DNA from: Closterium sp. NIES-65
Taxonomy: Eukaryota; Streptophyta; Zygnematophyceae; Desmidiales; Closteriaceae
Assembly (NCBI GenBank): GCA_948144175.1
Contig: CANXME010002496.1
Span: 144,141 to 208,140, forward strand
Length of the DNA stretch: 64,000 nt
Reading direction: 5' to 3'
Within the stretch, counting starts at the first letter, position 1. The number at the start of each line of letters is the position of its first letter. Positions 9,746-64,000 of this stretch are shown in pieces. The notes beneath the pieces were generated by a model. The model ran no database searches. It worked only from the letters and a program-made list of their open reading frames with translations, and was not told the origin of the DNA. The position numbers and the translations under genes are program-made.

Positions 9746-9871
9746 TGTTATAATTGTCTAGCCTGCAGTGGGGTACTCTATAGCGAGTACAACCCAATTA
9801 GGGTTTCCTATATGTATGCCAACTGCTGCTAGTGCAACCCCTCCTCTCTTCTTCATTCACATTCTTCACAT
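9746..9871 (+). repeat. Copia LTR-like block with adjoining primer-binding site
   Basis: A 126-bp block bounded by TGTTAT and TTCACA. It is followed at once by TGCTATCAGAGCAT, close to the TGGTATCAGAGC primer site complementary to initiator tRNA-Met. That makes it a 5' LTR of a plus-strand element, of which only the leader to about 11.0 kb remains. It contains the TTAGGGTTTC core shared with the block at 16671-16858. Confidence 0.6.
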
Positions 9872-44733: not shown

Positions 44734-47700
44734 TTAAGCTACACTCTCTCCTGCTGCTGCCCCTCCTGCTGCATCTGCCCCTGTCCCTGCCCCTGCCCCT
44801 GCTTCTCCCATCCCGTCCGTCTGCCACAGCGCAGCATACCTTTCCCCTGACCCAGGAGCATCGCTCTCCCCAGCCCCCCCATCCATTGGGCCATAAGAGG
44901 ACACAAGGAGGGGCGGCTGTTTCAGGGAACGAGCTAGCAGCTCAAAAGCACTGCGGCTGACGTCCGTTGTGAGGGTGGAGCGGGGAGGTGTTGATGGGCT
45001 GGCCCGAGCAATGTATGCATAGAAGACCTGTGAAGAAAAACGGAACAATAAGAGCAGGAGGGGAGAGAAGGAGAGGTGGGTGCTTGAGCGAGCGAGAGAG
45101 CAGGTCAATGGCGCCGCGGCTGACGTCCGTTGTGAGGGTGGAGCGGGGAGGCGAGGAGGATGCAGCCCGGGCGATGTATGCATAGAAGACCTGTCGAGGC
45201 GGGAAGAGGACACGGTAGAAGCAGGAGGTGAGGGAAAGAGGGGCGGGTGCTTGCGTTCCGAGGAGCGTCAAGAAGCTCCCCCATGCACTAGCCTAAAGGA
45301 GGAAAAAATGTCGTGTGCCATAGTAACGAGGTGACTTCTGAGTTGACTCAAAAGTCACAAAGTCACCTCTTTTGAGTCGACTCAAAAGTCACCTCAGAAT
45401 TCACCTCGTTCTGAGGAGCCTCAAGGAGCTTCTCCATCCACCAGCCTATAGGAGGACACAAGGTGAGGCGCCTGCTTGAGGGAGTCAGCAGCTCAAATGC
45501 GCTGCAGCTGACATCGGTCGTGAGAGTAGAATGGGGAGGTGAGGAGGGGGCAACCCAGGCAATGTATGCATAGACGCATGTTGACAGAGGCGAGGGTGGA
45601 GGGACAAGTGGGGAAAGGCTTGAGTCCAGGAAGTGAATGCATAGAAGACCTTATACGGCAGGGGAAGATTTAACATGTGAGTCGACTGAGAGGTCAGCTC
45701 GGAACGTGGAGGAAAGGAAGGTGGCATACAGTAACCACCTCATCCTCTCATTCTCACCTGATAGCCAACGGTGTACGCCTTGAGGAAGGTGGGAACGAGG
45801 GGAGGCAGCAACTGGGTCAGCGCCTGCTGCAGCTGCGCCTGTGTCTTGGCCACCCCGCCCTGCCAGCCCCCCCTGCTGGGCGCATCGTTCCACACATCGG
45901 CCACGTATACTCTCTGAGAGGAAGGGTCTTCTGTGAACGATACACTCAAAGGAGTGTAGCCCTGCAGAATGAAGGGGGAGGGGGATTGGCATAGGTGGGA
46001 ACGAGGGGAGGGAGTTTGGTATAGGTCGGAACGAGGGGAGGCAGCAGCTGAAGCAGCGTTTTTTTAGGCAACTCAAAGCCGAGACAGCGCCTGCTGCAGC
46101 TGCGCCTGTGTCTTGGCCACCCTGCCCTGCCAGCCCCCTCGGCTGGGAGCATCGTTCCACACATCCGCCACGAACACTCTTTGGGCCGAAGGGACCTCAG
46201 TAAATGACAGACTCAGAGGGGTGTAACCCTGCAAATGGGAGGAGAAGAGGGGGGGGAGAGAGGGGCGTCTTGGCCACCCTCCCCTGCCAGCCCCTCTGCT
46301 GGGAGCATCGTTCCACACATCCGCCACAAACACTCAACGGGGTGTAGCCCTGTGGAAGGGGGAAAGCAGGAAGAAAAGGAAGATGGAAGGAACAGGAGAA
46401 TCGTTCCACACATCCGCCACAAACACAAGGAGGGAGGAAGGGTCCTCTGTGAGCGACACACACTCAACAGGGTGAAGCTCTGGAGCAGGGAGGGGGGAGG
46501 GGGGAGGGGAGGGTAAAATTTAGAAGCAGGCATTGAATTTCGAGACATCTCAGAACCGTCACCCGTTTCCCATCACTCTCCACAACCACTCCAACCCCTC
46601 CACCATCCCTCCTGCACCCTCCGACCATTCCCTCCACCTGTCGCTGTAACTGCGGCCACCGGGAGGAGGGCCCGCAGCAGTAGGAGGCGTCATGAGGGAC
46701 GCCGAACACCGCTTCCACCCTGTAAACTCCCACCTCTCCCACCCCCCCCACTCTCCCTCCCCATCCCCACTCACCTGTCGCTGCAGCTGCAGCCATCTTG
46801 AGGAGGGCCCACAGCAGTAGGAGGAGTCGTGAGGGACGCCGAACACCGCCTCCACCCGTGTGCTGCTGCCAGCTGGCCATGCCACGTCAGCAAGGAATAT
46901 GGAGGCGTAGTACAGCCCGTGGTGGTCCGCCACATAGTAGCTCTCCACCTGTTGGGGGCGGCAGATTAGTGGGCGGCAGATTAGTGGGCAGCAGAGTGGT
47001 GGGCGGCAGAGTGGTGGGCGGCAGAGTGGTGGGCGGCAGAGTGGTGGGCGGCAGAGTGGTGGGCAGCAGAGTGGTGGGCGGCAACAGAGAGGTGGGCAGC
47101 AGAGTGATTGCACCTGAGAGGGGCCTTTGTGGAGACTTCAGAGTTACCTCAAGAGTCACACAAGCATGCGCCGAAGAGATAAGCACACCTGAGCACACCT
47201 GGGCACACCTGAGCACACCTGGGCACACCTGAGCACACCTGAGCACACCTGAGCACACCTGAGCACACCTGGGCACACCTGAGCACACCTGGGCACACCT
47301 GAGCACACCTGAGCGCACCTGAGAGGGCTTATAGCCCGAGGAGATGTCATGGTGTAGGGCATCCTGATACTGCTGGCCTTTGAGGCAAGATGGATGGGTA
47401 AGATGGACATACGCTCCTGAGCGGAGTGGAGAGATACGCACCTGAGAGGGCTTGTAGCCCGAGGAGATGTAATGGCGCAGAGCATCCTGGTACTGCTGGC
47501 CGTTGAGGTTGAACACCATCACCCACCCCAACTGTTTGGGGAGCAGGTGTGCAGAGGGGTACGGGGAGGTACAGGAGGGTACAGGGGGGTACAAGGGGGC
47601 GTGCTGGTGGGTGTTGAGTCATACTGCAGAGCGTCCTGGTACTGCTGGCCGTTGAGGGGTTGGACACCATCGCCCACCCCAGCTGTCAATAGAGAACAAG

Positions 47701-48629
47701 GGGTACAGCGGGGTACAGGGGAGTGTGCAGGGGCGTGCAGGGGGGTGTTGAGTCATACTGCAGAGCGTCCTGGTACTGCTGGCCGTTGAGGGGTTGAACA
47801 CCATTGCCCACCCCAGCTGTTGGGTGGCGGAAAGAACAGTGATGGAGGTGAGGAGAGAGGAGCAACGGGGATTGAAGGAGCATCAAAAGGACCTGAAGGG
47901 AAGCTTATATATCTAGTGAGCAAGTGATGAAAGGATATTTTGGGTGCAAGGATAGGAGCGTACGGATTTCGAGTTGGGTTGCCAGAGTATCGAGAAGAAG
48001 ACGAGTGCGCGAGGGGACGCGACGGCATATGCGCTGACAAAGGCCGGCACATGGGAGCGCGTGCGCGAGGAGAGAAGAGCCGGCAAGTCGGACGACTCGA
48101 CCCGTGAGTCAAGGATCGGGCCGGCGGTTAGCCAGCCGCCCGGGTATTTGCGCTCGAAGTAAGCTGGCTGTAGTAAGGAAGAGAGCGGGGGGGATGGGAG
48201 GAGCAAGCGAGTGAGGAGAGTAAAGTCGGCAGGTCGAACGAGAGTGAAGGGCGGAGAGTGTAGGGAAGCAAGAATAAGCGGGCAAACATTTACCTCAGCT
48301 CCGGAGATTTCTGGCTGCGCGCGTTCCGCAGAACTACTCGTGCGGAACTTCCGGATTCTTAGGCGACTCGGCGCGCTGTGGTTTCCCTGCGACGAAAATA
48401 CCAGCGGTGTTACACGCGGTGTTACCGCACCCCCGTCGGATACGTTCCTTCGCGGAAAGTTCTCGTCACGGAATGCCCCGTCAGCGGCGGCGACGGGGCC
48501 TCCGAGGTGGAAATCCGCGCCGAACCCGCCGCGGAACGCGAGGGATGAGGACACCTGCCAAGGAAGGACCGCCGCGAGGAGCGTAAGAGAGAAGAGCGCT
48601 GCGAGAATGTTGGCGGCGCGGGAATCCAT
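44734..48629 (-). CDS. Secreted tandem-repeat protein 1 (BTRD1-like repeats), six exons
   Basis: Exons: 48629-48294, 48167-47964, 47531-47442, 46948-46775, 45961-45758, 45027-44734; all junctions phase 0; 433 residues. Signal peptide with core ILAALFSLTLLAAVLP, then an AFRGGFGADF motif and a poorly conserved spacer. From residue 113 there are repeats of one pattern: an aromatic block, then GYxP or PAF, then Y/F, then YAxIW. Examples are HVPAFVSAYAVASP..FFSILW, GYKPSQVESYYVAD..YYASIF, GYTPLSVSFTED..VYVADVW, PPLVPTFLKAYTVGYQVFYAYI and RYAALWQTDG. This resembles the bacterial tandem repeat domain 1 (polyglycine-hydrolase structural repeat) family. A conserved CC pair (SYCCGP) may be structural. 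No catalytic domain was recognised. Exon 5 is one piece here but split in both paralogues. Confidence 0.8.
45030..47820 (-). repeat. Intronic partial exon copies in repeat-protein gene 1
   Basis: Extra fragments of the gene's own exons: VFYAYIA starts at about 45090-45200 and 45560-45660; exon 5 pieces at 46080-46230, 46262-46345 and 46395-46480; the exon 4 end at 46630-46720; exon 3 middles at 47345-47390, 47635-47680 and 47765-47815. Most keep one splice site. Also present are a 15-bp GGTGGGCGGCAGAGT repeat (46980-47090) and a 10-bp CACACCTGAG/GGG repeat (47183-47330). Confidence 0.75.
45371..45388. repeat. Perfect 18-bp palindrome, TCGA core
   Basis: TTTTGAGTCGACTCAAAA in the last intron of repeat-protein gene 1. 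A one-sided variant with core TTGA lies 30 bp upstream at about 45337-45356. Confidence 0.95.
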
Positions 48630-49334
48630 CGAAACCGGCGCGCGAGAAACGGAGCGCGAAGGGAAAAGACTAGAAACTGACCACAACGAAGGACAAAGAA
48701 GGTCGGATGATGCTTTATGAAGCAAACAAAAATCAGCTGAGGTGAAATGCTGATGCGAGGTGAATTCGGGGGGAAATTCGACGTCCTCGCCATTAGCACG
48801 CTCGACATGAGTTTGGCTCCCTATTCGAAGCACTGAAGCTACTATCATGCTTTGGAAAAGCCCCTCGGTATCCTTTCTGGAAAGAAAATAATACAAAATT
48901 GTGCTAATATGTAACCTCCTTTTCGTTTTTTTGAAAAATGTACAAAACACTATTTACAAGGATATATGCTACACCATATCATCACAATGCAATGCATCTA
49001 ATGCTTTTCAAACCTTATACCTCTGCTTTGCCCTTTTCCCCAAGCTCCCCTCTTGTGTCTACCTTCCTTCCACATTTTCCACTCCCTCAACTGCCCACCT
49101 TCCCATGCTCCCCTCCCCTCCAACCTCCCCCCAACCCCATCAGTCTGCCACAGCACAGTGTATCTTTCCCATGATCCCCTCTCCCCCACCACCCCAACAT
49201 CATCAGTTGCGCTTTTCCCTTGCTCCCCACACTTGGGCGGCACAAACTAGGCGACAAACAGGGGGGGGGTGCTGGAGGGAGCGAGCGAGCACCATCAGCA
49301 ACTCCCCCCTCCCCCCCCCTCCCCCCCCCGAATA
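48630..49334. other. Intergenic: 5' flank of gene 1 and decayed last-exon copies of gene 2
   Basis: 48630-48900 is upstream sequence of gene 1. 49000-49330 holds a relic of the last exon of gene 2 (ERYTVLWQTDGVGG on the minus strand near 49140) beyond that gene's stop. No separate gene. Confidence 0.5.
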
Positions 49335-52300
49335 TCACTCTTGCCACAGAACAGTGTATCGTTCTGTTGCGCTTTTCCCCTGCTCCCCGCACTTGGGCGG
49401 CACGAAAGAAGCGACAAACAAGGGCGGGTACCTGAGGGAGCGAGCGAGTAGCTCGAAGCCACTATGGCTGATGTCAGCAGTGAGGGTGAGGTGGGGAGCA
49501 GAAGCGGAGGGCGGGCGGGCCACATATGCATAGAAGACCTGCTTGGGAGGAAGAGAAGGGAAAGAGGGGTAGAAGAGGCGGATTCAGACAAGCTATGAAC
49601 ATCGCATCTCATCCAGTGCGCCTCAGCATGTCCATAGCAAGCTCTGAGGGGAAGAGAGGTGAAACTCTCACCTTCTCCCCTTCTCACACTCTCACCCTCT
49701 CACACTCTCACCTTCTCCCCTTCTCACACTCTCACCCTCTCACACTCTCACCTTCTCACCTGCTAGCTCTGTCACTCCCATCCTCTCCTGCAATTTTAAC
49801 CCTCTCATCCCCACCTGCATCCCAACCGTGTACGCCTTGAGGAAGGTGGGAACCAGGGGAGGCGGCAACTGCGCCAGTGCCTGCTGTAGCTCTGCCTCTG
49901 TCATTGCAACTCCGCCCAGCCACCTGGGAGTAAACAGGGAAAGGGAAACAGGGGGCCTTATGATTAGGCTCAAGAAAAGCAGCTGCACTAGAGCCTGCTA
50001 CACTCTGTTACAGATATTGCCTTTTGAGTGTGAGAGAAGTAACAGCCACACTCACCCGCCAGACGAGGGAGGGCTGCTCCACACGTCCGCCACATACACG
50101 GTGAGAGCAGCCGGGTCCTCTGTGAGGGATACGCTGAGGGGGCTGAATCCCTGTGGGAGGTGAGGGGAAGATGAGAGGGGACGAGGAGATGCAAAGAGGG
50201 GAAATAAGGGAAGTTCTTGAGTTCACGGATAGACCGTGAGAGCAGCTGGGTCCTCTGTGAGAGATACGCTGAGGGGGCTGAAGCCTTGTGGGTGATACAG
50301 GGAAGGTGAAGTGAGGTGGAGTCAGCACTCTATTCCCTGAAAGCACTCCCCACCCAGTCTTCCTCCCACACCTGCCGCTGCAGCCGCCACCACCCCGATG
50401 TGGGACCACAGCAGTAGCTCGTGTCGTGTGGCTGCTCCCCATGCCCTCTTTACCGTCCTTGTTGACCAAATACCTTTACCTCTCTGCTGCATACACCCAC
50501 CCCACCCCCCCCCCTCCCTCCCACACCCACCTGTCGCTGCAGGCGCCACCACCGGGAGGTGGGACCACAGCAGTAGCTCGCGTCGTGCGGCATGCCAAAC
50601 GCCGCCTCCACCCACATGGAGCTGCCAGCTGGCCACGCCACGTCAGCAAGGAAGATGGCAGAGTAGTAGATCTCGTGGTAGTACGGCCTCACGTCGTCCG
50701 ACACGTAGTAGCTCTCCACCTGAATTCCGGGCGGCAGGGATGGGCGGCAGGATGGGTGACAGAGATGCACGGCAAGGAAGAAGGCAGCACATTATGAGCA
50801 GAGCTCTTGGTAGTACGGCATGAGCTGCTGACTTTTGGGTGGAACCAGAATTCAACCAGATGGCGGCGCAATGAAGCCTAGGCTCCAGATGGATTAGAGC
50901 TCGTGGTAGTACGGCCTCACCTCGTCCGCCACGTAGTAGCTCTCCACCTGCACACCGGGTGGCACAGTGGTGGGCGACAGAGATGGGCGGCAGAGATGGG
51001 CGGCAGGGATGGGCGGCAGGGTGGGTAGCAGGAGTGGCCGGCAGGTATCAATGATGGGCGGCATGGGCGGCAGTGGCAACAAGGGTGATGATGAGACCGC
51101 GTGCGAGTTGACTTTTGAGTCGACTCAAAAGTCAAGTCGACTCAAAAGTCAAGTCGACTCAAAAGTCAAGTCGACTCAAAAGTCAAGTCGACTCAAAAGT
51201 CAAGTCGACTCAAAAGTCAAGTCGACTCAAAAGTAAAGTCGACTCAAAAGTCAAGTCGACTCAAAAGTCAACGCAGTGGCAACAAGCATGATGATGAGAC
51301 AGCGTGCTAGTTGACTTTTGAGTCAACTCAGTGGCAACAAGGGTGATGATGAGACGGCGTGCTAGCGAGTTGAAAACACTAACCCAGCCGTGTCATTGAT
51401 GTAAGAGAACTTTTGAGACGTCTCTAAAAACACTAACCCAGCCGTGTCATTGATGTAAGAGAACTTTTGAGACGTCTCTAAAAACACTAACCCAGCCGTG
51501 TCATTGATGTAAGAGAACTTTTGAGACGTCTCTAAAAACACTAACCCAGCCGTGTCATTGATGTAAGAGAACTTTTGAGACGTCTCTAAAAACACTAACC
51601 CAGCCGTGTCATTGATGTAAGAGAACTTTTGAGACGTCTCTAAAAACACTAACCCAGCCGTGTCATTGATGTAAGAGAACTTTTGAGACGTCTCTAAAAA
51701 CACTAACCCAGCCGTGTCATTGATGTAAGAGAACTTTTGAGACGTCTCTAAAAACACTAACCCAGCCGTGTCATTGATGTAAGAGAAAGTGACGCACCCC
51801 CCCCTCATTGTGCACCTGTGCAGGTTTAAAGCCCGAGGCGATCCGACGGTGCAGAGAATCCTGGAACATTTGACCGTCGAGATTGAACACCACCACCCAG
51901 CCGACCTGTTGAGAGCAAAAGGAGCGGGAGGGGATAAAGGAGGGACGGAGGGAGAGAGGGAGAATACGGGAGCAAGAGAAGATCAGAGGAGAGACGTTTG
52001 CCAAAGGAGGCTGCGAGGAAGATCAAAACGGGAGGAGACGAGCATACATGGAAAGATACTGTTAAAGGATTGAAGGAGCTTACGGATTTGGAGTTGGGTT
52101 GCCAGAGGATGGAGAAGTAAACAAGCGGGCGAGGGGACGCGACGGCGTATGCGGTGATGAAGGCCGGCATGTGGTTGCGCTCTCGCGAGGAGATTAAAGC
52201 CGGCAGGTCGGACGCCTCGACGCGCGAGTCGAGGATAGCGCCATACGTGAACCAGCCGCCAGGATATGAACGCTCGAAATAATCTGTATGCGGGGAAGAG

Positions 52301-52776
52301 ATACCGGGGCGCATCGATGGGAGAAAAAGAGGAAAAAATATTTTGTAAAAATATAAAGAACGAGAACGGGATTTCCTGGATGCGACGCGAGTTCAACCCA
52401 CCGGAGCTTCGTCACTTTCTTGTGTAACGCTTTGCGAGCGCGAATTCGACGCGCTGGGACTTCCTGTAAACGAAAACTCATGCGGTTCCATGCCGAGCTT
52501 GCCGCGTCGCACGAGAGCTGCCTTCTTCTCTCGGCGCGGCGCCTCTCTCGTAAATGAGAACTCAAGCGGTTCCATGCGGCCTCGCGCGGAACCGCGAATA
52601 GACTCTTCTCTGCTTGTACTGTTCTCGCCGCGACGCGAGATTCCGTGTTGGGTGAAAAGAGATTCTGCGCCCCATCCGCCGCGAAACGCGGGGGCAGATG
52701 ATACACTTCGAGGAAGGGCCGCGACGAGAAGTGTTAGCGGCAAAAATACTAGAACGCAGGCAGAGTGTAAATTCAT
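49335..52776 (-). CDS. Secreted tandem-repeat protein 2, seven exons
   Basis: Exons: 52776-52398, 52283-52084, 51905-51816, 50719-50531, 50150-50056, 49923-49815, 49538-49335; GT-AG junctions, phases agree; 421 residues. I took ATG 52776 because it places MNLHSACVLVFLPL as signal peptide, matching paralogue 3. AFRGGWGAES follows the leader, then a spacer containing two PLEFSFT/PHEFSFT-like motifs, then the repeat region: DYFERSYPGGW, DSRVEASDLPAL, GFKPAQVESYYVSDD, SSMWVEAAFGMPHD, SYCCGP, GFSPLSVSLTED, VYVADVW, LKAYTVG, VFYAYVAR, and the end ERYTVLWQE. Compared with paralogue 1 it has a five-residue insertion in exon 4 (RPYYHEIYYS region) and an extra intron inside the GYxP..VYVADVW block. Probably extracellular; biochemical role unknown. 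Confidence 0.8.
51110..51270. repeat. Array of TCGA-centred palindromes (17-bp unit)
   Basis: Starts with a perfect 24-bp palindrome (half-site GACTTTTGAG, core TCGA). It continues as about nine direct copies of AAGTCGACTCAAAAGTC. Lies in the intron between exons 3 and 4 of repeat-protein gene 2. Confidence 0.95.
51377..51790. repeat. 54-bp tandem repeat with ACGT-centred palindrome
   Basis: About seven and a half nearly identical 54-bp units, each containing TTTTGAGACGTCTCTAAAAA. The minus-strand frame repeats FSYINDTAGLVF; this is a by-product of the unit length. It sits in the same intron as the array at 51110, directly next to exon 3. Confidence 0.95.
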
Positions 52777-53343
52777 CTGAGACAGGTATCTTGGGAGCGC
52801 ACGGCTCACGCCTTCAGGCTAGGAACTCTTCGGACTACGGCGGAGAAGCTGCGGAGAGGGTGTGAAATGTGAAAAATGGGGGCGATATTTGGATGGATGT
52901 GAATTTGCAGAAAATGCAAACACTCGAGACAAACAGACAATGTGAAAGAGATAGGGAGCTACACTGTATATTAGTTGGATGGCTAAGATTTAACAATAGC
53001 GGTAGTGGTGAGTTACAAAAAGGCAACACCTCTAACATCCCAAGGCACCAAACCATCCGCTTTCAAAGCTTTATCCAATCATTGTCTGACATATCCCTGC
53101 CGAAGCGGGGTACTCGGCTCGTACGTAAGTTGAGGAGGTGCTTGCATGCCTGACATAATCCGATATTGAACTACGGTAGTAGAATATACAAGGAATTATA
53201 TACAAGGTCAGTTACATGTTACAAAGAATTCTTCTACAACTTGTGCAGTAATGCTCTCTATACTTGTGCTATGCGACTTTCACCCAACTTCCCGTCTGGC
53301 ATTGTCCTTCCTTCCACCTCCTCTCCCTCCACCTCCCATACTC
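52777..53343. other. 5' flank of gene 2 and 3' end of gene 3
   Basis: 53030-53155 is homologous to 56565-56690 upstream of gene 3 (AAGGCACCAAACCATCCGCT, CCTGCCGAAGC, TCGGCTCGTACGT, GCTTGCAT). The tandem duplication therefore carried along upstream sequence. No other gene. Confidence 0.5.
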
Positions 53344-56092
53344 CTAAACCCCCCTCTCCTCCAACCCCCCCCCCCCAACACCATCAGTCTGCCACAGAAC
53401 AGTGTACCTTTCCCTGGCACTTTTCCCATGGCCCTCGAACTTGGGGGGCAGGAACGAAGCGACAAGGAGAGGGGGGTGCTTGAGGGAGAGAGCCAGCAGC
53501 TCAAAGCCGCTGCGGCTGATGTCGGGAGTGAGGATGCGGTGGGGGGCGGTGGGGGAGGTGGGGGGCCGGGCAACGTACGCATAGAAGACCTGCTCGGGAG
53601 GGGAGGAAGGGAGGGGAGAGGGGGGTGCTTGAGGGAGAGAGCCAGCAGCTCAAAGCCACTGCGGCTGATGTCGGGAGTGAGGATGCGGTGGGGAGCGGTG
53701 GGGAGCGGTGGGGAGCGGTGGGGAGCGGTGGGAGGGCGGGCCACGTACGCATAGAAGACCTGCTTGGTAGGGGGAGGAGGATGAGAGGGGAGGCAGGGAG
53801 AAGAGGTGAAGGGGCAAGAAGAGTGTGTTACGCTGCGGCCGATGTTGGGCATGAGGATGTGGTGGGGAGTGGAGGGGGGGAGTGGAGGGGGCGGGCTAGA
53901 TATGCATAGAAGACCTGCTTGAGGGGGGAAGGTGAGGTAGAGCGAGAGCAGAATGTTATTCATTATATGGTATCGGGTACTACAGTGTACCACAGTGTAC
54001 CGCAGTGTACCGCAGTGTACCGCAGTGTACTGCAGTGTACCGCAGTGTGCTGCGGTGAACCCCAGTGTACCGCATTGAACCGCAATGTGCCTCTCCTCCC
54101 CTCATCCCCCCATCCTCACCTTCAGCCCAACAGTGTACGCCTTGAGGTAGGTGGGAACTAGGGGATGCGGCAACTGCGCCAGTTCCTGCTGCAACTGCTC
54201 CTCCGTCCTCGCCACCCCGGTGTGCCATCTAGGGAGTGAAGAACACAAGGGGAGGGCAAAAGGGGGCAGAGGGTAAGTCTTGAGTCGACTCAAAGTCGTC
54301 GAGTCACCAGGCAGTCGGCAGCTGGGAGTACAGAGGAACTCAGGGGGGAGGGGAAAACAACGCTCGACACTCGACATGCTCCTGCATAGTGATGTCCTTT
54401 GAGATGCCTCACGGAGATGGCTTTTGAGGCGCCTCATAAGTCAGACTCACCCAGCGGGGGTGGGGGCGTTGCTCCACACGTCCGCCACATAGACGGTGAG
54501 GGCAATGGGGTCCTCTGTGAGGGCGATGCTCAGAGGGCTGAAACCCTGTGGGGGAGGCAAGGAAGATGCGAAGAGATGAGGGGAGCTGAGGGAGAATAGC
54601 TGAGTTGACTCGAGTCAAAGGACATAGACGGTGAGGGCAATGGGGTTCTCTGTGAGAGAGATGCTGAGGGGACTGAAACTGTGTAGGGGTTGAAGGGAGA
54701 GAGCAAGGAAGCAGTGGGAAAGGAATACTGCCTAGCGTTCCGTAAGGTGAAATGAGGTGAGGTGAGGTGAGGTGAGGTGAAGTGAGGTGAGGTAAGAGGG
54801 GTCTCAAAAACCCCTATCTGACACCCTCTTCAAACCCTCTCTAAACCCTCTACAGCCCATCTGCCCGCCACACCTGTCGCTGCAGCCGCCACCATCTGGA
54901 GGCGGGGCCACAGCAGTAGCTCTTGTCGTGTGGCATGCCGAATGCTGCCTCCACCCGTGTGTCGCTGCCAGCTGGCCATGCCATGTCAGCAAGGAAGAAG
55001 GCTGCGTAGTAGATCTCGTGGTAGTACGGCCTGCCCTCGTCCGACACGTAGTAGCTCTCCACCTGGACCGGGCGGTAGGGATGGGCGGCAGGGATGGGCC
55101 GGATGGTCGGCAGGTGTCGATGACACGACGCCGGCGCTGAGACATAAGAAAATGCCAGCATCATGGACAATCAAATTACAACGTAACACTGCACTAAATG
55201 GTGACGCACCCCCATCCTTTGTGCACCTGCACAGGCTTAAAGCCCGACGCGATCTGACGGTGGAGAGCATCTTGGAACATTGGACCGTCGAGATTGAATA
55301 GCACCGCCCAGCCAAACTGTCGATAGCAAGAGGGGGAGAGAGAGGCAGGACGTGAGGGAGAGAAGGTCAGAGGAGAAGCGTTGGAGTAGAAGTCCGCGAG
55401 GCAAGATGAAAAGGGGAGGAGAAAAGCTTTCCATACATACATGGAAAGCTGTGAGCGAGTAGAAAGAGCTTACGGATTTGGAGTTGGGTTGCCAGAGGAT
55501 GGAGAAGAAGACGAGCGGGCGAGGGGACGTGACGGCGTACGCGCTTATGAAAGCCGGCGCGTGGGTGCCCGTGCGCGAGGAGATTAAAGACGGCAGATCG
55601 GACGCTTCTACGCGCGAGTCGAAAATAGCTCCGTAGGTGAACCAGCCTCCAGGGTAGGAGCGTTCGAAATAATCTGGCTGTAAGGAAGATATATTGGGAC
55701 ACACAGGCAGAAAAAGGAAGAAACGGAAAGCAAATGAAACTTAAAAGGACAAGTTAGTAATTTTTTGGATGCGACATGCGACGCGACGCGAGTCCACCCA
55801 CCGGAGCTCCGTCTCTCTCGTGCGCAGTGCGTTGCGCACGTGAATTCGACGCGGTGGGCCTTCCCGTAAACGAGAACTCAAGAGGTTCCAGGCGGCCTCG
55901 CACGCAACCGCTTGAATAAGCGTCTCTTATCGTACGGTTCTCGACGCGACGCGAGATTCCGTGCTGGGTCAAGAAAGTTTTTGCGCCCCATCCGCCGCGG
56001 AACGCGGAGGCAGATGACACGCTTCGAGGAAGGGTCACGACGAGCAGAGTTAGCGGCAGAAACACTACAGCGCAGGCAGAGAGTAAATTCAT
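53344..56092 (-). CDS. Secreted tandem-repeat protein 3, seven exons
   Basis: Exons: 56092-55798, 55673-55474, 55316-55227, 55062-54874, 54545-54451, 54228-54120, 53589-53344; GT-AG, phases agree; 407 residues. Signal peptide MNLLSACAVVFLPLTLL, then AFRGGWGAKTF. The repeat region follows paralogue 2 closely: DYFERSYPGGW, GFKPVQVESYYVSDEG, DTRVEAAFGMPHD, SYCCGP, GFSPLSIALTED, VYVADVW, LKAYTVG, VFYAYVARPP, ERYTVLWQTDG. The C-terminus passes through a 12-bp G run (four Gly codons), so the exact stop is sensitive to sequencing error. Exon 1 is shorter than in paralogue 2, having one EFSFTG motif instead of two. One complete extra copy of most of the last exon lies upstream at about 53640-53765. 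Confidence 0.8.
53590..54100 (-). repeat. Intronic copies of the last exon of gene 3, and a 10-bp repeat
   Basis: VFYAYVARPP...LTPDISRSGFELLALSLKHPPL is repeated at about 53640-53765, with a shorter relic at 53850-53915; both retain the AGCAG or similar acceptor side. 53985-54080 is a run of a 10-bp unit, AGTGTACCGC. Confidence 0.75.
54422..54439. repeat. Near-perfect palindrome, GCGC core
   Basis: TTTTGAGGCGCCTCATAA, about 12 bp inside the intron after the donor of exon 5 of repeat-protein gene 3. A related TCGA version (CTTGAGTCGACTCAAAG) lies at 54279-54295 in the same intron. Confidence 0.9.
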
Positions 56093-57434
56093 AGGAGACG
56101 GGTATATCGGGAGTGCGAACATAAATGACAGCTCACGCCTTACAGGCTAGGAACTTCTCAAATATGGCGCAGAACCGCTGAGACGACGAAAAATGGGCGC
56201 AAATTTGGGTGAAAGTGGATTTGTAGCAAATGAAAAAAAACGCGATAATAGCAGTCACCGTACAACAATGTAAAATGTTGCTACATTTTCTATAAGCTGG
56301 ATGGTTAACATCTAGCCAGGAGTGGCATGACTTTGAAGGGTGGCACTGTTCTGGTTGGCGACTGTTGGGCATGTTGGAGTAGCAGTGATGTCTGTCGTTG
56401 ACTCGTTGGCGAAATTCGTGCACGCTAGCATCTTCCAAAGAGGCTTGTCAGGAATCCTTTCTCGCTAATCGCAGACATCGCACGTCGCTAGTCCCGACGG
56501 AGAAATCACTCTGACCCCCAACCACGTCAGCAGCACATCACAAACATCACTCGAAAAACCCAAGGCACCGAAACCACCCGCTTTCACATCTGTAGCCAAT
56601 CATAGTTCGAAATACACCTGCCGAAGCAGGGTCCTCGGCTCGTACGTGAGATGGGGTGGTGAGGAGCTTGCATTACGTCCGCCGTGCTTGGCGCTCATGT
56701 AGAGAATCGAGTTTCAGCGAGGCTCCGCGCCGCCTCTGTGCCAGCGTCGACATTTCCAGTTTCGGAATAGCCAATGAGTTCCGAGCCGCTTCTCCCGTGC
56801 GAAATGTAGCCGAATTTCTCTGCACCAGCCCCCTTCTCCCTTCTAACCCCCTCCTTTCCCAATGTACAAGCTGGCTGGGGTTACGCTGCTCAGAATCTTG
56901 ATCAGACTGTCGAGTCAAACGATAAGGCAGACATAAACTGTTTTGAGTTGTCAGGGTATCAAGGCAGTTTTATCAAAGCAGTCGACAAGAACAGTCACCA
57001 TACTATAGTCTACGAATCTCGCGCAAACATTACGCAGGCTAGCGCCGAAAATCAAAATCCATACCACATTCAGTCGGTGTCAGGTACGCCAGCCATTTTA
57101 CCGCTTGCGTGCGAGACAATAGATTCTCAGCGGACGCAAGTCTCTGCCTTCAATTAGTGACATAACACAGGGCACAGAACGTTACGAGCTCACGGTTGAA
57201 AATCCCGACTATCGACTAACAAGTCGCGCACCAACGACTCGTCCAAAGCTCCTAATCGCACTCAGCGCTAGCTCCTTACCGTAACCACTTCTCTCCGTCA
57301 CTTACCCTCATCACCAGCGCTAGACCCTTACCGCCTGCGGCGCTCGTTTTATCTTACAGTCGTGCGCTCAATAACGAGTATCTTCGTTAAAGGAAGTTCT
57401 CCGTAACACATTTGAGAATTCTCAAACATCCGCT
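56093..57434. promoter_or_regulatory. Divergent intergenic region
   Basis: Lies between the starts of repeat-protein gene 3 (minus) and the small gene at 57435 (plus). It contains the duplicated flank 56565-56690 and, at 57411-57426, the palindrome TTTGAGAATTCTCAAA, 8 bp before the ATG of the plus-strand gene. No other gene was recognised. Confidence 0.5.
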
Positions 57435-58167
57435 ATGGCTATGTATGCGGCGAATCTCTGCCTCCTGCCGCCCTTCCTCGCCCTGCCGTCACTCCTACAG
57501 CACCGCTCCGCCACCCTCGCCCACCTCCGCGACGGCGACGACGGTGACGGCGCCGGCGACGAAACGTGTCGCACGAGCGACGGAAGCCGCTGCGACGAGT
57601 CCGGCGCGCATGTATGGATTACAAACCCCCTGACAAATCCCCTGAAGAATCCCCTGATGATGCCGATGCTGGAGCGAGAACCGTCCATGACTCACACGAT
57701 CGAGTGCCTGCACGTGCATGGGACGGCTGAGAGGAAGGGCCGGCGAGTGCGGTGGGGTGACGAGGCGGGGTTGTCGCTTACGGCTATTCGAGAGTACGAG
57801 CCAAGGTGCGTGGTGTAACTCGGTTACTCATGAGCTGACTCAAAAAGGTGTGTGGTATCTATTGTGACTCCGAAAACACGTGGTAACTCCCATTGTGGAT
57901 GCCCAAGTGTGTGGGCAACTCTGGTAACTCCCAAGATTCTTAACATCCCTCCACCACCCACCTCCACCCCCTCCCCCCCCCCTTCTCCTCCCCTCCTCCT
58001 CCCCCCCCCCCCCAAAATCCCCACGCCCCCTCCTCCCTTTTCCCCCCCTCCCCTCTTGCCCATCTGCAAACTTGTATGAATGCAGCGAGACGAGACATCC
58101 GGATGACCTGGCGTGGTGGGAGATGGAGGACGACGATGATGACGTGTGCAGCTGCGCCATGCAGTGA
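57435..58167 (+). CDS. Small protein with RVRW (possible PP1-docking) motif, two exons
   Basis: Exons 57435-57805 and 58086-58167; the intron begins GTGCGT and ends AATGCAG, and the split codon restores Ser. The predicted protein has 150 residues. The N-terminal 50 residues are hydrophobic, then Arg/Thr/Ala-rich, and could be a targeting segment. The C-terminal third is more characteristic: GRRVRWGDEAGLSLTAIREYEPSE, spanning the junction, then TRHPDDLAWWEMEDDDDD and CSCAMQ at the end. The core RVRW followed by DExGxxLxxIRE resembles the RVxF-type docking site of protein phosphatase 1 regulators, where basic-V-x-F/W is followed by D-x-G-x-x-L. That reading is inference. The splice prediction is supported because joining turns a weak open frame into a conserved-looking acidic tail. 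Confidence 0.6.
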
Positions 58168-58783
58168 CGGCGGAGCTGCGCCGAGGGTGGAGCTGTGCCG
58201 ACGGCGGAGCTGCGCCATGCAGTGAGGGCGGAACTGTGCCGAGGGCGAGTTGACTTTTGAGTCGACTCAAAAGTCCACGAGGGCGGAGCTGCGCTGAGGC
58301 CGAAATTGCGACGAAGGCGAGGCAATGCCCTAAGCGGAGCTGCACCATGCATTGGGGCCGGAGCCGTGCGTTGTGCCCTGCGGGTTGTCGTTCAGAGCGG
58401 ATAAACAGGTTCTAAACAATAGACTGCACTTAATATACTGTTACAACTGTGCATTAAGCAAAGCATGAGGTGTGCATTATGCACTCAATACATTCACACT
58501 GCACGCGCCTTGACTACTCTTGGCGAATGGAGTGTAATAATGGTATACTGAGCACGTTGGCTCAAATATCTTAGATCTGCTGTGGGTATTCTCTGACAAG
58601 AAGTGGTTTATGAAGTAGGATAATTCTCATCCTGGAACCTATGTGATTCAGGCCTTGCCAATAAAGTAGCTGCTGGTGTATATCGCTCTGAAGATTGTAG
58701 CAACTGACTTGGAGTGTACAATTTTGTTAGAAAAAGTTCTCTTGCATTGAGACACTCAGTGTCAGGTGCTTTTCACCCTATGT
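58168..58783. other. Convergent intergenic DNA
   Basis: 58170-58370 is an imperfect GGCGGAGCTGCGCC repeat interrupted by a perfect 24-bp TCGA palindrome (58252-58275). The rest is AT-richer 3' flank. No gene. Confidence 0.6.
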
Positions 58784-61700
58784 TCAAACAATCCTAGCAC
58801 CGTCGCTTATATCACACCCCACCACCATGCTATCTTTCTGACACGCTGCAGCCAGCTCAGGCTGTCTCCGCGAATACTCTTCCGCCACGTGGCGCGCCAC
58901 ATCAGCAACCTTCTCTCGCTCCACGAGCGCCACACAGCACCCCCTAAAGCCTGCACCACTGAACCTGGCCCCGAGCACACCCTGGTGTGGCCAGGAGTAT
59001 GGATCGGAGCTCTATGAGGGGCGGGCTGCCTGTGGTTGAAAAGGATGAGAGGGACGGAGGGATGGGAGTGGTGGGAGAGAGGGAAGAGGGGAGAGAGGAT
59101 GAGAGAAAGATGAGGATTGAGCAGAGCTCTATGAGGGGTGGGCTGCCTGTGGAGGCAGGAGGATTGAGCAGAACTCTATGAGGGGTTTATTGCAACTTAG
59201 CGCAACGTAGCGCCCTGCTGCAACTTAGCACCCTGCTGCAGCACCTCAGGTCCCTGCAGCATTCCACCCACACTGACCGCACTCCACCCGCCAGCACCGC
59301 ACCCCACCTCACACTAACCGCACTCCACCACCAGCACCACACCCCCACCCCACACTGACCGCACTCATAGAGGTCGATGGAGCTCTGCCCCGACTCCGAC
59401 ATCAGGCGCCCAAACAGCTGCCAGTCGCCTTGCTGCAGAGCCTCAGCGCCCTGCAGCACTCGCGCGCTCTCTGAGAAGAAGTGTGTGTGCGGCGGCGCAG
59501 CGCCTCAGGTAGGTGGTCCTGCCAGTGGCAAGGCAGAGGGAAGGAAGTGACATATGAGCCAACTAAAAGAAGTCGCTCTCTGAGAAGAAGTGTGCGGCGC
59601 GGCGGCACAGTGCCTCAGGTAGATGGTGCCTCTGGTAGATGGTGCCTCCGGTAGATGGTGCTGCCAGTGGCAAGGCAGAGGGAAGGAAGTGACATATGAG
59701 TCGACTAAAAGAAGTCGCTCTCTGAGAAGAAGTGTGCGGCGCGGCGACACAGCGCCTCCGGTAGATGGTGCTGCCAGAGGCGACAAGAAAAGAGAAGGAA
59801 GGAATGAAGCCTCCTCCCATGTGGCTCTTAAGGACGTGGATAAGAATCGCAAAAGTATTTTCCGGAAGTGCTCAAAGGCGACTGAGAATGAGGAAGAAAG
59901 GATCAGTGTTATCACCTTGTGGACCTCCAAGACGAGGGTGACTTTTGAGTCGACTCAAAAGTCAAGGCGACTGAGAATCAGGAAGAAATGATCAATATTA
60001 TTACCTTGTGGGCCTCCAAGACGTGAAGAGGCACTGCAAGAGGAGGACGAGAAGACACAGGTTCATGTCAGTGACACAGGGTAAGAAGAAACCAGCACAC
60101 GGAGTTTGAGACTTTTGAGACGTCTCAAAAACACGCGGGTAAGAAGAAACCAGCACACGGAGTTTGAGACGCCTCCAAAACCGTCAGGCACACGGTGTAC
60201 GAAAACAGCAAGTGGAATAGTTTTGCGGCGCCTTTAAAAAGACGACTTTTGAGGCCTCAAAAGGACACACGGGTAAGAAACCAGCACCACGGAGTTGAGA
60301 CGCCTCAAAGCTGTCAGGCACACGTGTATGAAAACAGCAAGTGGAATAGACGATACTGCAGTCAACGTCTGCCACAAGGCTCAAAACACAGTCACGTCTG
60401 CCACAAGGCTCAAATGTGCCAACCCGCGCCGCTCGATATATTTAACCAGGCCTAACCCTACCCGCCTCATGCCACAGACCTTGCCATATGGGACAGGTCA
60501 TTCCAGGTGCGTAGAAAAGGCCGACTTTGAGTCGACCTCAAAAGGTGACTTTTGAGGTGACTTTTAAGTCGACTCAAAAGTCGCCTCATGCCACAGACCT
60601 TGCCATATGGGACAGGGTCATTCAAGGTGCGTAGAAAAAGCCCTCCCCCCCCCCCTTTCCTCACGACTCTCAGGACCTTGCGAAAGAACAGGAGCGGAGG
60701 GCACGTGAAGTCCCACGCTACTCAATATGTACAACCCAGCCCACCTCATGCCTCACACCCTGCCATCACACCCTGCCTCGAAAAGAAGGCCCCCCTTTCC
60801 TCACGACTCTCCAGACCTTGCGATATAAAACAGGAGACGTGGGCACATCCAGTCCTGCTTTTGAGGCGCCTCGTAAAAAGGCGCCTCGAAAAGAAAGCCC
60901 CCCCCCCCCCCTTTCCTCACGACTCTCAGACCTTGCGAACAAGAACAGGAGCGGAGGGCACATCCAGTCCTGCTGCAACGAGAAGCATCCTGGCAAGCTC
61001 CTGGCACTCCTGCACACGGTTGTTGTAGCCCGAGGAGGAAGCGAGGGCCGCCTGCATGCCTGAGAAGGCCAAGATGAAGGCGACTGTGGGGAGGGGAGCT
61101 GGGAGGGTACACGGTAGGGGAAAGGGAAGGCGAATTTTTTAGCAGACTGAAAAGCACCTCTGGTAGTAGTAGCCCGAGGAGGAAGTGAGGGCCGCCTGCA
61201 TGCCTGCAGAAGGCCAAGATGAAGGCGACTGGGGGAAGGGGGTCTGGGAGGTGCATGGAAGGGGGGAAGGGAAGGCGTTTCTGTGGCAAGCCTAAAAAAC
61301 ACATCCACTTGTTGTAGCCCGAGGAGGAAGTGAGGGCCGCCTGCATGCCTGAGAAGGCCAGCATGAAGGCGACTGTGGGAAGGGGGTCTGGGAGGCACAG
61401 GGGAGGGATGGAGAGAAAAAGAGAGAAGTGATGAGTGGAGTAAAACCCAGGATGAAGTCAGATGAAAGAGGTAATTGATCACCTCGGATTGTTGCAGCCC
61501 GACGATTGAACGATAGCCGCCTGCATGCCTGAGACAGCCAAGATGAAGGCGACTGGGGGAAGGGGGTCTGGGAGGCACAGGGGAGGGGAGGAGAGAAAGA
61601 GAGAAGGTGATGAGTGGAGTAAAACCCAGGATGAAGTCAGATGAAAGAGGTAATTGATCACCTCGGATTGTTGCAGCCCGACGATTGAACGATAGCCGCC

Positions 61701-64000
61701 TGCATGCCTGAGACAGCCAAGATGAAGGCGACTGGGGGAAGGGGGTCTGGGAGGCACAGGGGAGGGGAGGATGCCTCGTTTGATTCATCAGCACCCTGCT
61801 TATTGAAGTCAGATGGTGATTCGTTAGGGCATGCGTGTATCACTTCTGAAGAATCTCACAACCTGAGCGTACAAGGATACTGACTGACTCATACGCACCT
61901 TGTTCATTGGGGTCAGATGGTGTCCCCGCAGGGAGTGGAATGAAGTCGTGTCGACGATCCTGAGGAAGAGGGGATTGGAATTCGGGAGAGGGACAAGCAA
62001 GGAGAGGGACAAGCGAGGAGAGGGACAAGCAAGGAGAGGGACAACCAAGGAGAGGTGGTCAGGCTGTCCAAGGATCAAGATTTGCTGCTACCCGACATGT
62101 TTTTTGAGAATTCTCAAAAAACACGCTCGGGGAGTAGCAGGATCAAGATTTGCTGCTACCCCGACATGAATCTTTGATCCTTGAATTTGGGACAACCAAG
62201 GAGAGGTGGTCAGGCTGTCATGCATTTAGGAATGAGGCGCAGTGTGAAAGGAGGGGCAGGTGTAGTGTCGGATGGGAGACAGAGAGGGAACTGGAAGCAA
62301 CAGTGGATGATCGTGGGGAGCATAAAGAACGGAAAAGTGCGGTTCTGTTAGGTGATTCAGCTGACCTGGCACCAGATGCGAGTGAGGTGGCCGGATTTTG
62401 AAAGGACGATTGCTGATTGGTCCAACACTCCGTTCCTCAAACCAAGGAAACCGTTCTCTATAAGCCTGAGAGAAGTATGCAAGAGGAGCGAATGGAGGGA
62501 GAGAGGATTGCAGCAGGATGGAAAGGCAGAGGAGGAGACCAAGGGAATCGTTTTTGAACTGAGCCTGATGGCAGAATGCAAGAGGAATGCCTCTAAGAGT
62601 CACCTTGACTCATTCAACCACTGCAGCCCTTCGAACATGAGTCAAGGTGGCCTGACGGCAGAATGCAAGAGGAATGCCTCTAAGAGTCACCTTGACTCAT
62701 TCAACCACTGCAGCCCTTCGAACATGAGTCAAGGTGGCCTGACGGCAGAATGCAAGAGGAATGCCTCTAAGAGTCACCTTGACTCATTCAACCACTGCAG
62801 CCCTTCGAACATGAGTCAAGGTGGCCTGACGGCAGAATGCAAGAGGAATGCCTCTAAGAGTCACCTTGACTCATTCAACCACTGCAGCCCTTCGAACATG
62901 AGTCAAGGTGGCCTGACGGCAGAATGCAAGAGGAATGCCTCTAAGAGTCACCTTGACTCATTCAACCACTGCAGCCCTTCGAACATGAGTCAAGGTGGCC
63001 TGACGGCAGAATGCAAGAGGAATGCCTCTAAGAGTCACCTTGACTCATTCAACCACTGCAGCCCTTCGAACATGAGTCAAGGTGGCCTGACGGCAGAATG
63101 CAAGAGGAATGCCTCTAAGAGTCACCTTGACTCATTCAACCACTGCAGCCCTTCGAACATGAGTCAAGGTGCCTGACGGCAGAATGCAAGAGGAATGCCT
63201 CTAAGAGTCACCTTGACTCATTCAACCACTGCAGCCTTCGAACATGAGTCAAGGTGGCCTGACGGCAGAATGCAAGAGGAATGCTCTAAGAGTCACCTTG
63301 ACTCATTCAACCACTGCAGCCCTTCGAACATGAGTCAAGGTGGCCTGACGGCAGAATGCAAGAGGAATGCCTCTAAGAGGAAGACAACGAATGAATGAAA
63401 GATCACAGCAACTGAAACAAAGGTAGACGAATTGCATGAGGATTGGAGTGGGCATGGAGGAAGAGTCGGAGATAAAGAGTAAGCACTGCATGCAAGCGAG
63501 GCAGCCAAAGAGTGATTGGAATAAGGTGCAGAGCGGTGCAATGAGGTGTACCTGTCCAGCTCAATGAGCTCCGCTGGAGAGAGCGAAAGGTTGTTGGCAT
63601 CGGCGAGGGCCAATAGAATGCGACACCTGTCTGCCTGTGCAGATGGCATGGCACAGCGGAAGAGATAGGAGCCAAGGTTGAACAAGACGATTTCAAACCC
63701 ATGAGACATGGGTAAATCTCACAAAGCATGTAAGGGCGTTGCAAGTGGATGGAGATAAACCCAGGAGCAGCGAGGTTAGGCAAAGCAGGGGGTTATGGTT
63801 GCGGGGTTATGGTGCGACGATTTCAACGCAGCGAGGTTAAGGTTGCGGAATGCAGGGAAAATAGACAGGGGTGGGCGCATAGGTTATCTTCGAGGCGCCT
63901 AAAGAAAAGGTGAACGTATTGCAAGGTGCATGGGTATATCCTAAAGCAGCAGAGGAGCTAACGCCAGCACTGTCCATTCCTGGCTGCCCGCACATCACTC
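58784..64000 (-). CDS. GALAK: Galacturonokinase (GHMP kinase), 3' part; 5' end outside window
   Basis: Phosphorylates D-galacturonate at C1 in sugar salvage. Exons recognised by match to the plant enzyme: about 64000-63939 (GMDSAGVSSSAALG, the GHMP ATP-binding loop), 63626-63552 (LLALADANNLSLSPAELIEL), 62465-62366 (RLIENGFLGLRNGVLDQSA), 61959-61899, 61083-60932 (VAFILAFSGMQAAL, then RVQECQELARMLL), 60033-60005 (PLHVLEAHK), 59518-59360 (HFFSESARVLQG, GRLMSESGQSSIDLYECG) and 59029-58784 (PPLIELRSILL, GARFSGAGFRGCCVALVE, stop). Junctions between the second and fifth listed exons are in phase. Three places do not join cleanly: the donor after SSSAALG, the 60932/60033 phase, and single-base frame breaks in the last two exons. 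It is either a decaying gene or carries assembly indels. Confidence 0.8.
59570..59770 (-). repeat. Copies of the start of the HFFSES exon
   Basis: Two extra copies (about 59570-59660 and 59705-59775) read LPEALCRRAAHFFSES and then DFF and a stop. They preserve the intact frame that is broken by one base in the full-length exon at 59480-59518. Confidence 0.75.
59940..59963. repeat. Perfect 24-bp palindrome, TCGA core
   Basis: Half-site GACTTTTGAG, core TCGA, inverted half-site. Identical copies lie at 58252-58275 and 51110-51133. Intronic in the galacturonokinase gene. Confidence 0.95.
60113..60130. repeat. Perfect 18-bp palindrome, ACGT core
   Basis: TTTTGAGACGTCTCAAAA; intronic in the galacturonokinase gene. 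Same arms as the TCGA, GCGC and AATT versions. Confidence 0.95.
60440..61770 (-). repeat. Intronic copies of a galacturonokinase exon
   Basis: The start of the exon at 61083-60932 (VAFILAxSGMQAA) recurs upstream in the transcript at about 61680-61740, 61500-61560, 61320-61375 and 61165-61235, each with an acceptor side. Its tail (GLDVPxSPVLxRK plus a GTC donor) recurs downstream at about 60830-60860 and 60690-60720, with weaker relics at 60600-60640 and 60480-60510. Only one copy is full length. Confidence 0.75.
62100..62121. repeat. Perfect 22-bp palindrome, AATT core
   Basis: TTTTTTGAG, core AATT, then the inverted arm. Intronic in the galacturonokinase gene. A shorter AATT version lies at 57411-57426. 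Confidence 0.95.
62571..63380. repeat. 87-bp tandem repeat with internal inverted repeat
   Basis: About nine units in the intron between the galacturonokinase exons at 62465 and 63552. Each unit has CACCTTGACTCAT and, 23 bp later, its exact reverse complement ATGAGTCAAGGTG, so each can form a 13-bp stem. The last three units carry single-base deletions. The 29-residue repeating open frame is a by-product of unit length. Confidence 0.95.

Follow-up and report, generated by a model that had tools for sequence, protein, structure and literature searches.

Short palindromes between direct repeats in a Closterium genome and their probable origin as insertions at repaired breaks

What process could place one very short palindrome at many positions of a genome and leave its two halves mirror images of each other at each of them? 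The question is raised by a stretch of 64,000 nt, here called the window (contig 2198:144141-208140 of an 874-Mb, 2400-contig Closterium assembly; published genome sizes in the Closterium p.s.l. complex are 454-1,188 Mb, PMC10407611), in which palindromes of the pattern TTTTGAG-N4-CTCAAAA, the TTTTGAGTC-type, are dispersed. The new finding is that a direct repeat, termed D, usually brackets such a palindrome, with one copy on either side. We consider that the palindromes probably arose when a very small palindromic element (18 to ~56 bp) was inserted during the repair of staggered breaks, with the two halves derived from one template.

The palindrome family and its cores

The pattern is found at 30,327 places in the whole assembly and its reversed control at 4, so that the possibility, left open by the initial annotation, of a copy number no higher than expectation does not apply; array units are counted several times, and the number of independent events is consequently smaller. 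Within the window, six sites have exact 7-bp arms around a 4-bp core (TCGA at 45370, 51113, 58255 and 59943, ACGT at 60113, and AATT at 62102), one copy at 60247 has a 2-bp core with a GGCC centre, and those at 22824, 51411 with its array, 54279, 54422, 57411, 60559 and 60859 carry one to three arm mismatches. All 14 places listed by the initial annotation hold a perfect or near-perfect palindrome, and its dozen copies with the same arms are there if mismatches are allowed, but not if exact arms are required (six, and the one with the 2-bp core). Perfect palindromes with arms of at least 9 bp number 7 in the window, against 0.25 expected from 20 first-order Markov shuffles, and those with arms of at least 8 bp number 9 against 1.05. 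With gaps of 0-10 allowed, and with overlapping frames and array units each counted, there are 15 near copies with one mismatch in the arms and 13 with two, as compared to 0.2 and 1.8 in the shuffles.

Further properties of the family were derived from a main sample of 244 kb (the window and 180 kb of further contigs, mostly copy-dense) and a second sample of three 8-kb stretches selected around mixed cores, which respectively contain 53 and 18 perfect-arm copies, or 71 when pooled. In the main sample, perfect arms are separated by 4 bp in 53 instances and by 2 bp in one, with single matches at gaps of 11, 16 and 18 and none at 0, 1, 3 or 5-10. The same 244 kb contain 59 perfect palindromes of at least 16 bp, of which 51 include the inner 8-mer of the family, and the half motif occurs without its mirror in 27 of 169 matches, eight of the 27 being units of a single 17-bp array. 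A larger parent with TTTTGAG or CTCAAAA ends was set aside as half motifs are seldom alone in the 244 kb; such a parent was not searched for across the whole genome.

The cores of the 53 copies comprise TCGA (24), ACGT (11), GCGC (10), AATT (3) and five asymmetric forms (ACAT twice, TTGA, TCAA and AATC), each of the latter being one transition away from a symmetric core; in the assembly-wide count of core types, which covers TCGA only, this core accounts for 13,080 of the 30,327 places. The core comes in four homotypic types, TCGA, ACGT, GCGC and AATT, which are the only symmetric kinds among the 71 pooled copies, the other twelve possible ones being absent. This restriction argues against a freely drifting core. 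The description of the cores as always self-complementary was likewise too strong, given that the window itself has asymmetric ones at 45336 (TTGA) and at 28184 and 51316 (TCAA); asymmetric cores are not, on the other hand, as common as symmetric ones in the sample (5/53). In viral DNA, which served as an unrelated control for the same pattern, 2 of the 120 viral-contig matches listed have a symmetric core.

Mixtures of two core types are rare. Of the 80 copies that have no more than a single arm mismatch, 72 are homotypic, eight are unclassified and none is mixed, whereas independent halves would yield 69% mixed cores. When up to three arm mismatches are admitted, six mixed cores appear among 144 copies, and decay could produce them. 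Assembly-wide, the two kinds of mixture counted, TC/AC and TC/GC, together number 246, and in the three 8-kb stretches five of the 18 perfect-arm copies are mixed (ACGA 2, TCGT 2, GCGA 1), with each of these three forms being one substitution from a homotypic core. The independent addition of tails to the two break ends was rejected in its simple form in view of this rarity.

The palindromes have a constant centre and ragged outer ends. Beyond the shared arms, outer position 1 is complementary at 47 of 76 loci, against 27.1 with right flanks permuted across the full set of loci and 31.8 (the sum of four expectations) with permutation inside each core type, while position 2 is complementary at 41 of 76, against 26.4 and 26.9 respectively. 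This mirroring is clear in the TCGA and ACGT types and not in GCGC. At six long-armed loci each half is composed of a CCACGTG-like end, ~11 nt and TTTTGAGNC; the middle ~11 nt vary between loci and are mirrored inside each, the mirrored positions amounting to 24/25, 26/28, 25/28, 25/28, 20/27 and 20/27. The pattern used for long arms was permissive, and several of the 22 places that it listed are array units. At C6:43844 and C10:378176 the long arm is present on one side, and the other side has the inner 9 bp or slightly more.

Direct repeats around the palindromes

The palindrome typically stands between two copies of D, each ~16-150 bp long. At a score of at least 15, D flanks 47 of the 53 perfect copies (34 of 39 when one is taken per 150-bp cluster), as compared to 59 of 300 positions drawn at random from that DNA and 95 of 400 in a second random set. 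The proportion falls as the arms decay, to 21/27 with one mismatch, 17/32 with two and 15/32 with three, and in the mixed-core stretches 16 of 18 copies (8 of 10 clusters) are flanked, as compared to 119 of 300 random positions. Under tight adjacency, 11 of 16 window loci are flanked by D, against 17% of random positions in 45-62.5 kb and 15.5% in the whole window (200 positions each). Two of the seven other perfect palindromes in the window are D-flanked, and one of these is a family relative, TTGACTCGAGTCAA. D could be aligned in 85 of 112 copies with up to two arm mismatches, array members included, with a median length of 62 and 5-95% quantiles of 21-138; the detection floor is ~14 bp, and shorter duplications would escape. 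The two copies can be identical, as at 60113 (34/34), C6:109299 (60/60) and C6:123337 (23/23), and at C9:119827 a 44-bp D surrounds a 32-bp palindrome. A search blind to the motif recovered 251 D-spacer-D structures in 284 kb, with 43 strongly palindromic spacers against 4 after shuffling of the spacers; 38 of the 43 contain a family word, and another two are family cores in shortened form. General palindromic filler was therefore rejected, only three of the 43 lying outside the family. The copies in the window and their flanking repeats are as follows.

22777..22842: three palindromes in tandem, decayed (CTTTGAGATGTTTCAAAG, TTTTGAAACGTCCCAAAA and TCTTGAGACGTCTCAAGG), within the spacer of a direct-repeat pair (left 22734-22779)
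28184..28201: TTTCGAGTCAACTCAAAA, a decayed copy with the asymmetric core TCAA, flanked by long direct repeats
45336..45388: two adjacent copies, one decayed with core TTGA, one perfect with core TCGA (45369-45388)
51070..51108, plus strand: first copy of D, left of the 51108 palindrome, D score 31
51108..51135: 28-bp perfect palindrome, core TCGA
51118..51271: 17-bp tandem array, 9.1 units, overlapping the right half of the 51108 palindrome
51273..51311, plus strand: second copy of D, then palindrome 51316 and another D
51373..51787, plus strand: 54-bp array, D alternating with a core-ACGT near-palindrome (8 D and 7 palindromes by eye)
54279..54296: core TCGA with two mismatches in the arms; a weak flanking repeat or none
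54422..54440: core GCGC with a single arm mismatch; flanks without a clear repeat
54605..54618: TTGACTCGAGTCAA, a related palindrome, at the junction of direct repeats
57411..57426: copy with core AATT; flanks without a clear repeat
58252..58275: 24-bp perfect palindrome, core TCGA
59875..59934, plus strand: D, left copy
59939..59964: 26-bp perfect palindrome, core TCGA
59964..60023, plus strand: D, right copy, ~90% identical
60079..60112, plus strand: D, left copy, 34/34 identical
60113..60130: 18-bp perfect palindrome, core ACGT
60137..60170, plus strand: D, right copy
60246..60263: 2-bp-core palindrome (GGCC centre) between direct repeats (left 60144-60220)
60523..60581: two family palindromes forming a compound insert, with direct repeats on both sides (left 60463-60522)
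60859..60882: insert with core GCGC, direct repeats on both sides (left 60775-60859)
62071..62099, plus strand: D, left copy
62098..62123: 26-bp perfect palindrome, core AATT
62139..62168, plus strand: D, right copy

The relative numbers of D and palindrome distinguish between two ways of arriving at this arrangement. Duplication of a palindrome-bearing unit would result in equal numbers of both, whereas insertion with target duplication, followed by slippage between D copies, would result in n+1 D. At 36 sites (at most one arm mismatch, D identity of at least 0.8 and spacing of at least 200 bp, with three arrays entering twice), a further palindrome beyond either D is absent at 26, present on one side at 10, nearly all of which are array members, and present on both sides at none. 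The arrays at C6:107990 and C6:131439 each have 6 D and 5 palindromes by eye. Hence D usually exceeds the palindrome by one, and tandem duplication of a palindrome-bearing unit is not favoured by this count. The count also bears on the view that a pre-existing palindrome breaks the DNA or stalls replication and so duplicates its neighbourhood, being the cause of the duplication rather than an insert. Short palindromes have been proposed as breakage hotspots in green-algal plastid DNA (PMC7043297), which lends this view some plausibility, but it predicts as many D as palindromes, against one more D at 26 of the 36 sites and in three arrays by eye, and it leaves unexplained why a single sequence family should be found at unrelated sites; we regard it as very improbable. 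In one tandem run at C6:104156-104232, cores GCGC and then ACGT follow each other at a single D boundary, which points to recurrent insertion at that spot. At 28068-28210, a direct repeat flanking a palindrome includes exon-like sequence by eye; insertions of this kind may therefore duplicate exon-intron borders, with a possible link to intron change.

Known DNA transposons make short target duplications of fixed length, and miniature inverted-repeat transposable elements (MITEs) and fold-back elements combine inverted repeats, lack of coding sequence and high copy number with constant ends. The Closterium palindromes are like them in the first three respects, and a MITE-like transposon, consisting of two terminal inverted repeats with nothing between, would have spread as double-stranded DNA from a few palindromic masters by means of a transposase encoded elsewhere. 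Its four discrete core types would resemble subfamilies, and about six long copies, the longest, do share an outer CCACGTG-like end. However, the outer termini are ragged in most copies around a constant centre, which is the reverse of a transposon, the flanking duplications of ~16-150 bp are variable rather than short and fixed, and the mirrored middle 11 nt, specific to each locus, would need either re-symmetrising or many palindromic masters. A transposon of this type is thus an unlikely source. Retroposons without long terminal repeats (long and short interspersed elements, LINE/SINE) also have target duplications of variable length, but their insert is asymmetric with a constant 3' end or tail, whereas here it is mirror-symmetric. 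The palindrome family is accordingly filed under neither MITEs nor retroposons.

Insertion at repaired breaks and later decay

In the insertion reading preferred here, a staggered double-strand break with long overhangs would be filled in from both sides, which would duplicate D, and the ends would then be joined, with the palindrome entering at the moment of joining. Its two halves would come from one template in one of three ways: a half-length strand of 9-28 nt could fold back and copy itself, one template (RNA) could be copied onto both break ends, or a ready-made hairpin or duplex palindrome could be captured whole. Subsequent slippage between D copies would allow some sites to grow into minisatellites. 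Vaughn and Bennetzen (2014) are reported to have described a 'patch-mediated' repair in which tandem duplications arise by fill-in of staggered breaks. Fold-back and copying onto both ends are favoured over duplex capture because the variable middle is mirrored and mixtures are rare. A more specific version, which we offer only tentatively, is that each insertion was newly made from a half-template (RNA or a folded strand, 9-28 nt) copied onto both ends of the staggered break, with a fixed stop at the centre and a variable start. Experiments support tandem duplication as an outcome of repair in which 3' overhangs are filled in with CST/Pol alpha-primase, and the same source cites natural cases from humans and plants as well as tandem duplications at paired nicks (PMC8355091). 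That system shares with the Closterium sites a direct duplication on both sides of the junction, and its end-joined duplications of tens of bp would explain D pairs of variable length; unlike in Closterium, the available parts of that source give no account of a palindromic insert that recurs (PMC8355091).

The flanking duplications favour insertion, which the initial annotation had named as one option. Its main idea was a continuing hairpin- or cruciform-templated correction of standing palindromes, in line with which there are several kinds of symmetric core, mirrored outer arms and a few symmetric arm variants. Complementary pairs of arm changes, which correction should generate, number 1 among 32 copies with two mismatches, against 0.82 expected by chance, and 5 among 32 with three, against 2.46. 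There is at most a slight excess of compensating arm changes, and the absence of a clear excess leads us to read the symmetry as set at birth; the five pairs against 2.46 nevertheless lowered our confidence in insertion by a little and raised by as little the small probability that we give to correction, which remains improbable. Further points against correction are that asymmetric cores in perfect-arm copies are single steps off the four types and that twelve further symmetric cores, which corrected drift could reach, are absent from the 71 copies. Free drift of the core combined with correction is not favoured on the same grounds, namely four symmetric cores only and no clear excess of compensation. 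The claim that the two halves are rewritten together thus fits the birth of the copies (72/80 homotypic and none mixed, with mirrored outer arms) but not clearly their later evolution, while hairpin repair as an ongoing process finds no clear support in the complementary pairs or in decay, which is near neutral except in the youngest bin.

The decay of 54 loci was compared across five bins of increasing D divergence (n = 7, 9, 10, 10 and 17, with one locus outside the bins), the neutral expectation for the palindrome being one half of the divergence that separates the two copies of D. Counted against the closest core type, mismatches average 1.14, 0.67, 0.90, 1.00 and 1.94, against expectations of 0.07, 0.37, 0.70, 1.05 and 1.88, and after insertion both the palindrome and D seem to accumulate changes as DNA free of selection does. 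A site selected for binding by a dimeric protein would account for the dyad symmetry and the fixed 4-bp spacer, but mismatches lie near the selection-free prediction in four of the five bins, and the palindromes are found at duplication junctions and inside minisatellites; this is the explanation to which we give the least credence.

Several observations weigh against insertion at repaired breaks or limit what can be drawn from the samples. In the youngest bin the 1.14 mismatches far exceed the 0.07 expected, perhaps since some inserts already deviated from the consensus at birth or since some D pairs underwent homogenisation. Palindrome decay correlates weakly with D age (rank rho 0.20, p 0.15) and likewise with D identity (rho -0.21, p 0.049), where array members are non-independent; the decay sample stops at three arm mismatches, and the aligner at times chose a longer, older repeat over the nearest one (C6:106805). 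Symmetric arm variants TTTGGGAC, TTCAAGAC and CTTGAGAC are present among the 59 perfect palindromes. Tight adjacency of D fails at five of the 16 window loci (45336, 54278, 54422, 57410 and 62102), three of which pass if adjacency is loosened, and 20-40% of random positions in the tandem-rich DNA sampled also receive a D call. The mixed-core stretches were selected for holding mixed cores, and the D statistics cover 268 kb of the 874 Mb, largely copy-dense DNA. Palindrome density is uneven, as four 10-kb stretches of other contigs (L143-L146) contain no perfect-arm copy. Lastly, queries with joined flanks at four loci recovered no empty site, the weaker matches not spanning the insertion sites, and near-identical copies are all filled. 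Contigs C6, C1658 and C347 represent a single region in nearly identical form, perhaps as haplotypes, and matches across palindrome sites are long enough to imply that the insert is present at 4 sites in C1658 and 3 in C347. One of the stretches without copies, L146 (C2210:50001-60000), has a GC content of 0.306 as compared to 0.546-0.636 in L143-L145, and is perhaps a contaminant or organelle contig.

Organellar palindromes and other features of the window

Dispersed short palindromes with conserved stems are known from mitochondrial and plastid DNA, from which the present family differs in its location, with 30,327 places in an assembly of nuclear size and a window that has leucine-rich repeat (LRR) and Copia-like reading frames. 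The palindromes of green-algal plastids (for example in Chlamydomonas eremi) are likewise very short, conserved and present in many copies, and their spread has been proposed to occur via ectopic templating in double-strand-break repair (PMC7043297). They number in the hundreds and have an AT-rich stem and a 3-nt loop, whereas those of Closterium have no loop and mostly have long flanking duplications, of which the available parts of that source make no mention for the plastid palindromes (PMC7043297). The mitochondrial hairpin elements of sponges, and those of Allomyces and yeast as cited with them, are also tiny, with conserved stems and tandem insertions; they differ in their variable loops and, in Allomyces, in being without flanking duplications, as far as the available text goes (PMC2800124). 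The LIMP and HyLIMP palindromes of Lobosphaera similarly form a family, the HyLIMP stems usually showing complementary changes in the opposite branch, but the LIMPs consist of pentamer repeats with a 7-nt loop in 19 mitochondrial copies (PMC4524435). Among the literature matches listed, with subscription journals mostly outside reach, there was no loop-free nuclear family of palindromes between long duplications.

Spread of palindromes by repair has been proposed for organelles (PMC7043297, in the parts available), and Closterium would, if insertion at repaired breaks is right, provide a nuclear case. A gene-less sequence of 18-56 bp could then spread through a nuclear genome via repair and act as a seed for minisatellites, and a single genome would hold a very large record of break-repair events, each preserving the state before the break in D and its age in the divergence of D. 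The source of filler DNA at breaks in the plant lineage would thereby become testable in Closterium. If copying from half-templates were also true, the family would represent a mobile palindrome of a minimal kind, gene-less and lacking fixed ends, which break repair has carried to tens of thousands of nuclear places in this lineage.

No RNA family reaches its gathering score in the 64-kb window. The LRR protein matches mainly land-plant receptor proteins at 26-40% identity, and a Copia-type reading frame lies on the minus strand at 14142-15671, with the best 120 matches listed all from Closterium strains (45-90% identity); a further segment at 8931-9761 is Copia-like by eye only. A 27-bp minisatellite of ~158 copies (GACCTCGAGATTCAATGAAACTCGCGG) occupies 33030-37301, and its unit is a weak inverted repeat by eye. 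On the minus strand at 61020-61771, an exon-like stretch that reads VAFILAFSGMQAALTSSSGYNN by eye recurs several times in tandem; its periods are 145 and 179 bp, and it looks as though parts of an exon had undergone repeated duplication. An 87-bp array of 9.4 units extends over 62563-63379, and each unit has a 13-bp inverted repeat, CACCTTGACTCAT...ATGAGTCAAGGTG, with a palindrome word different from that of the family.

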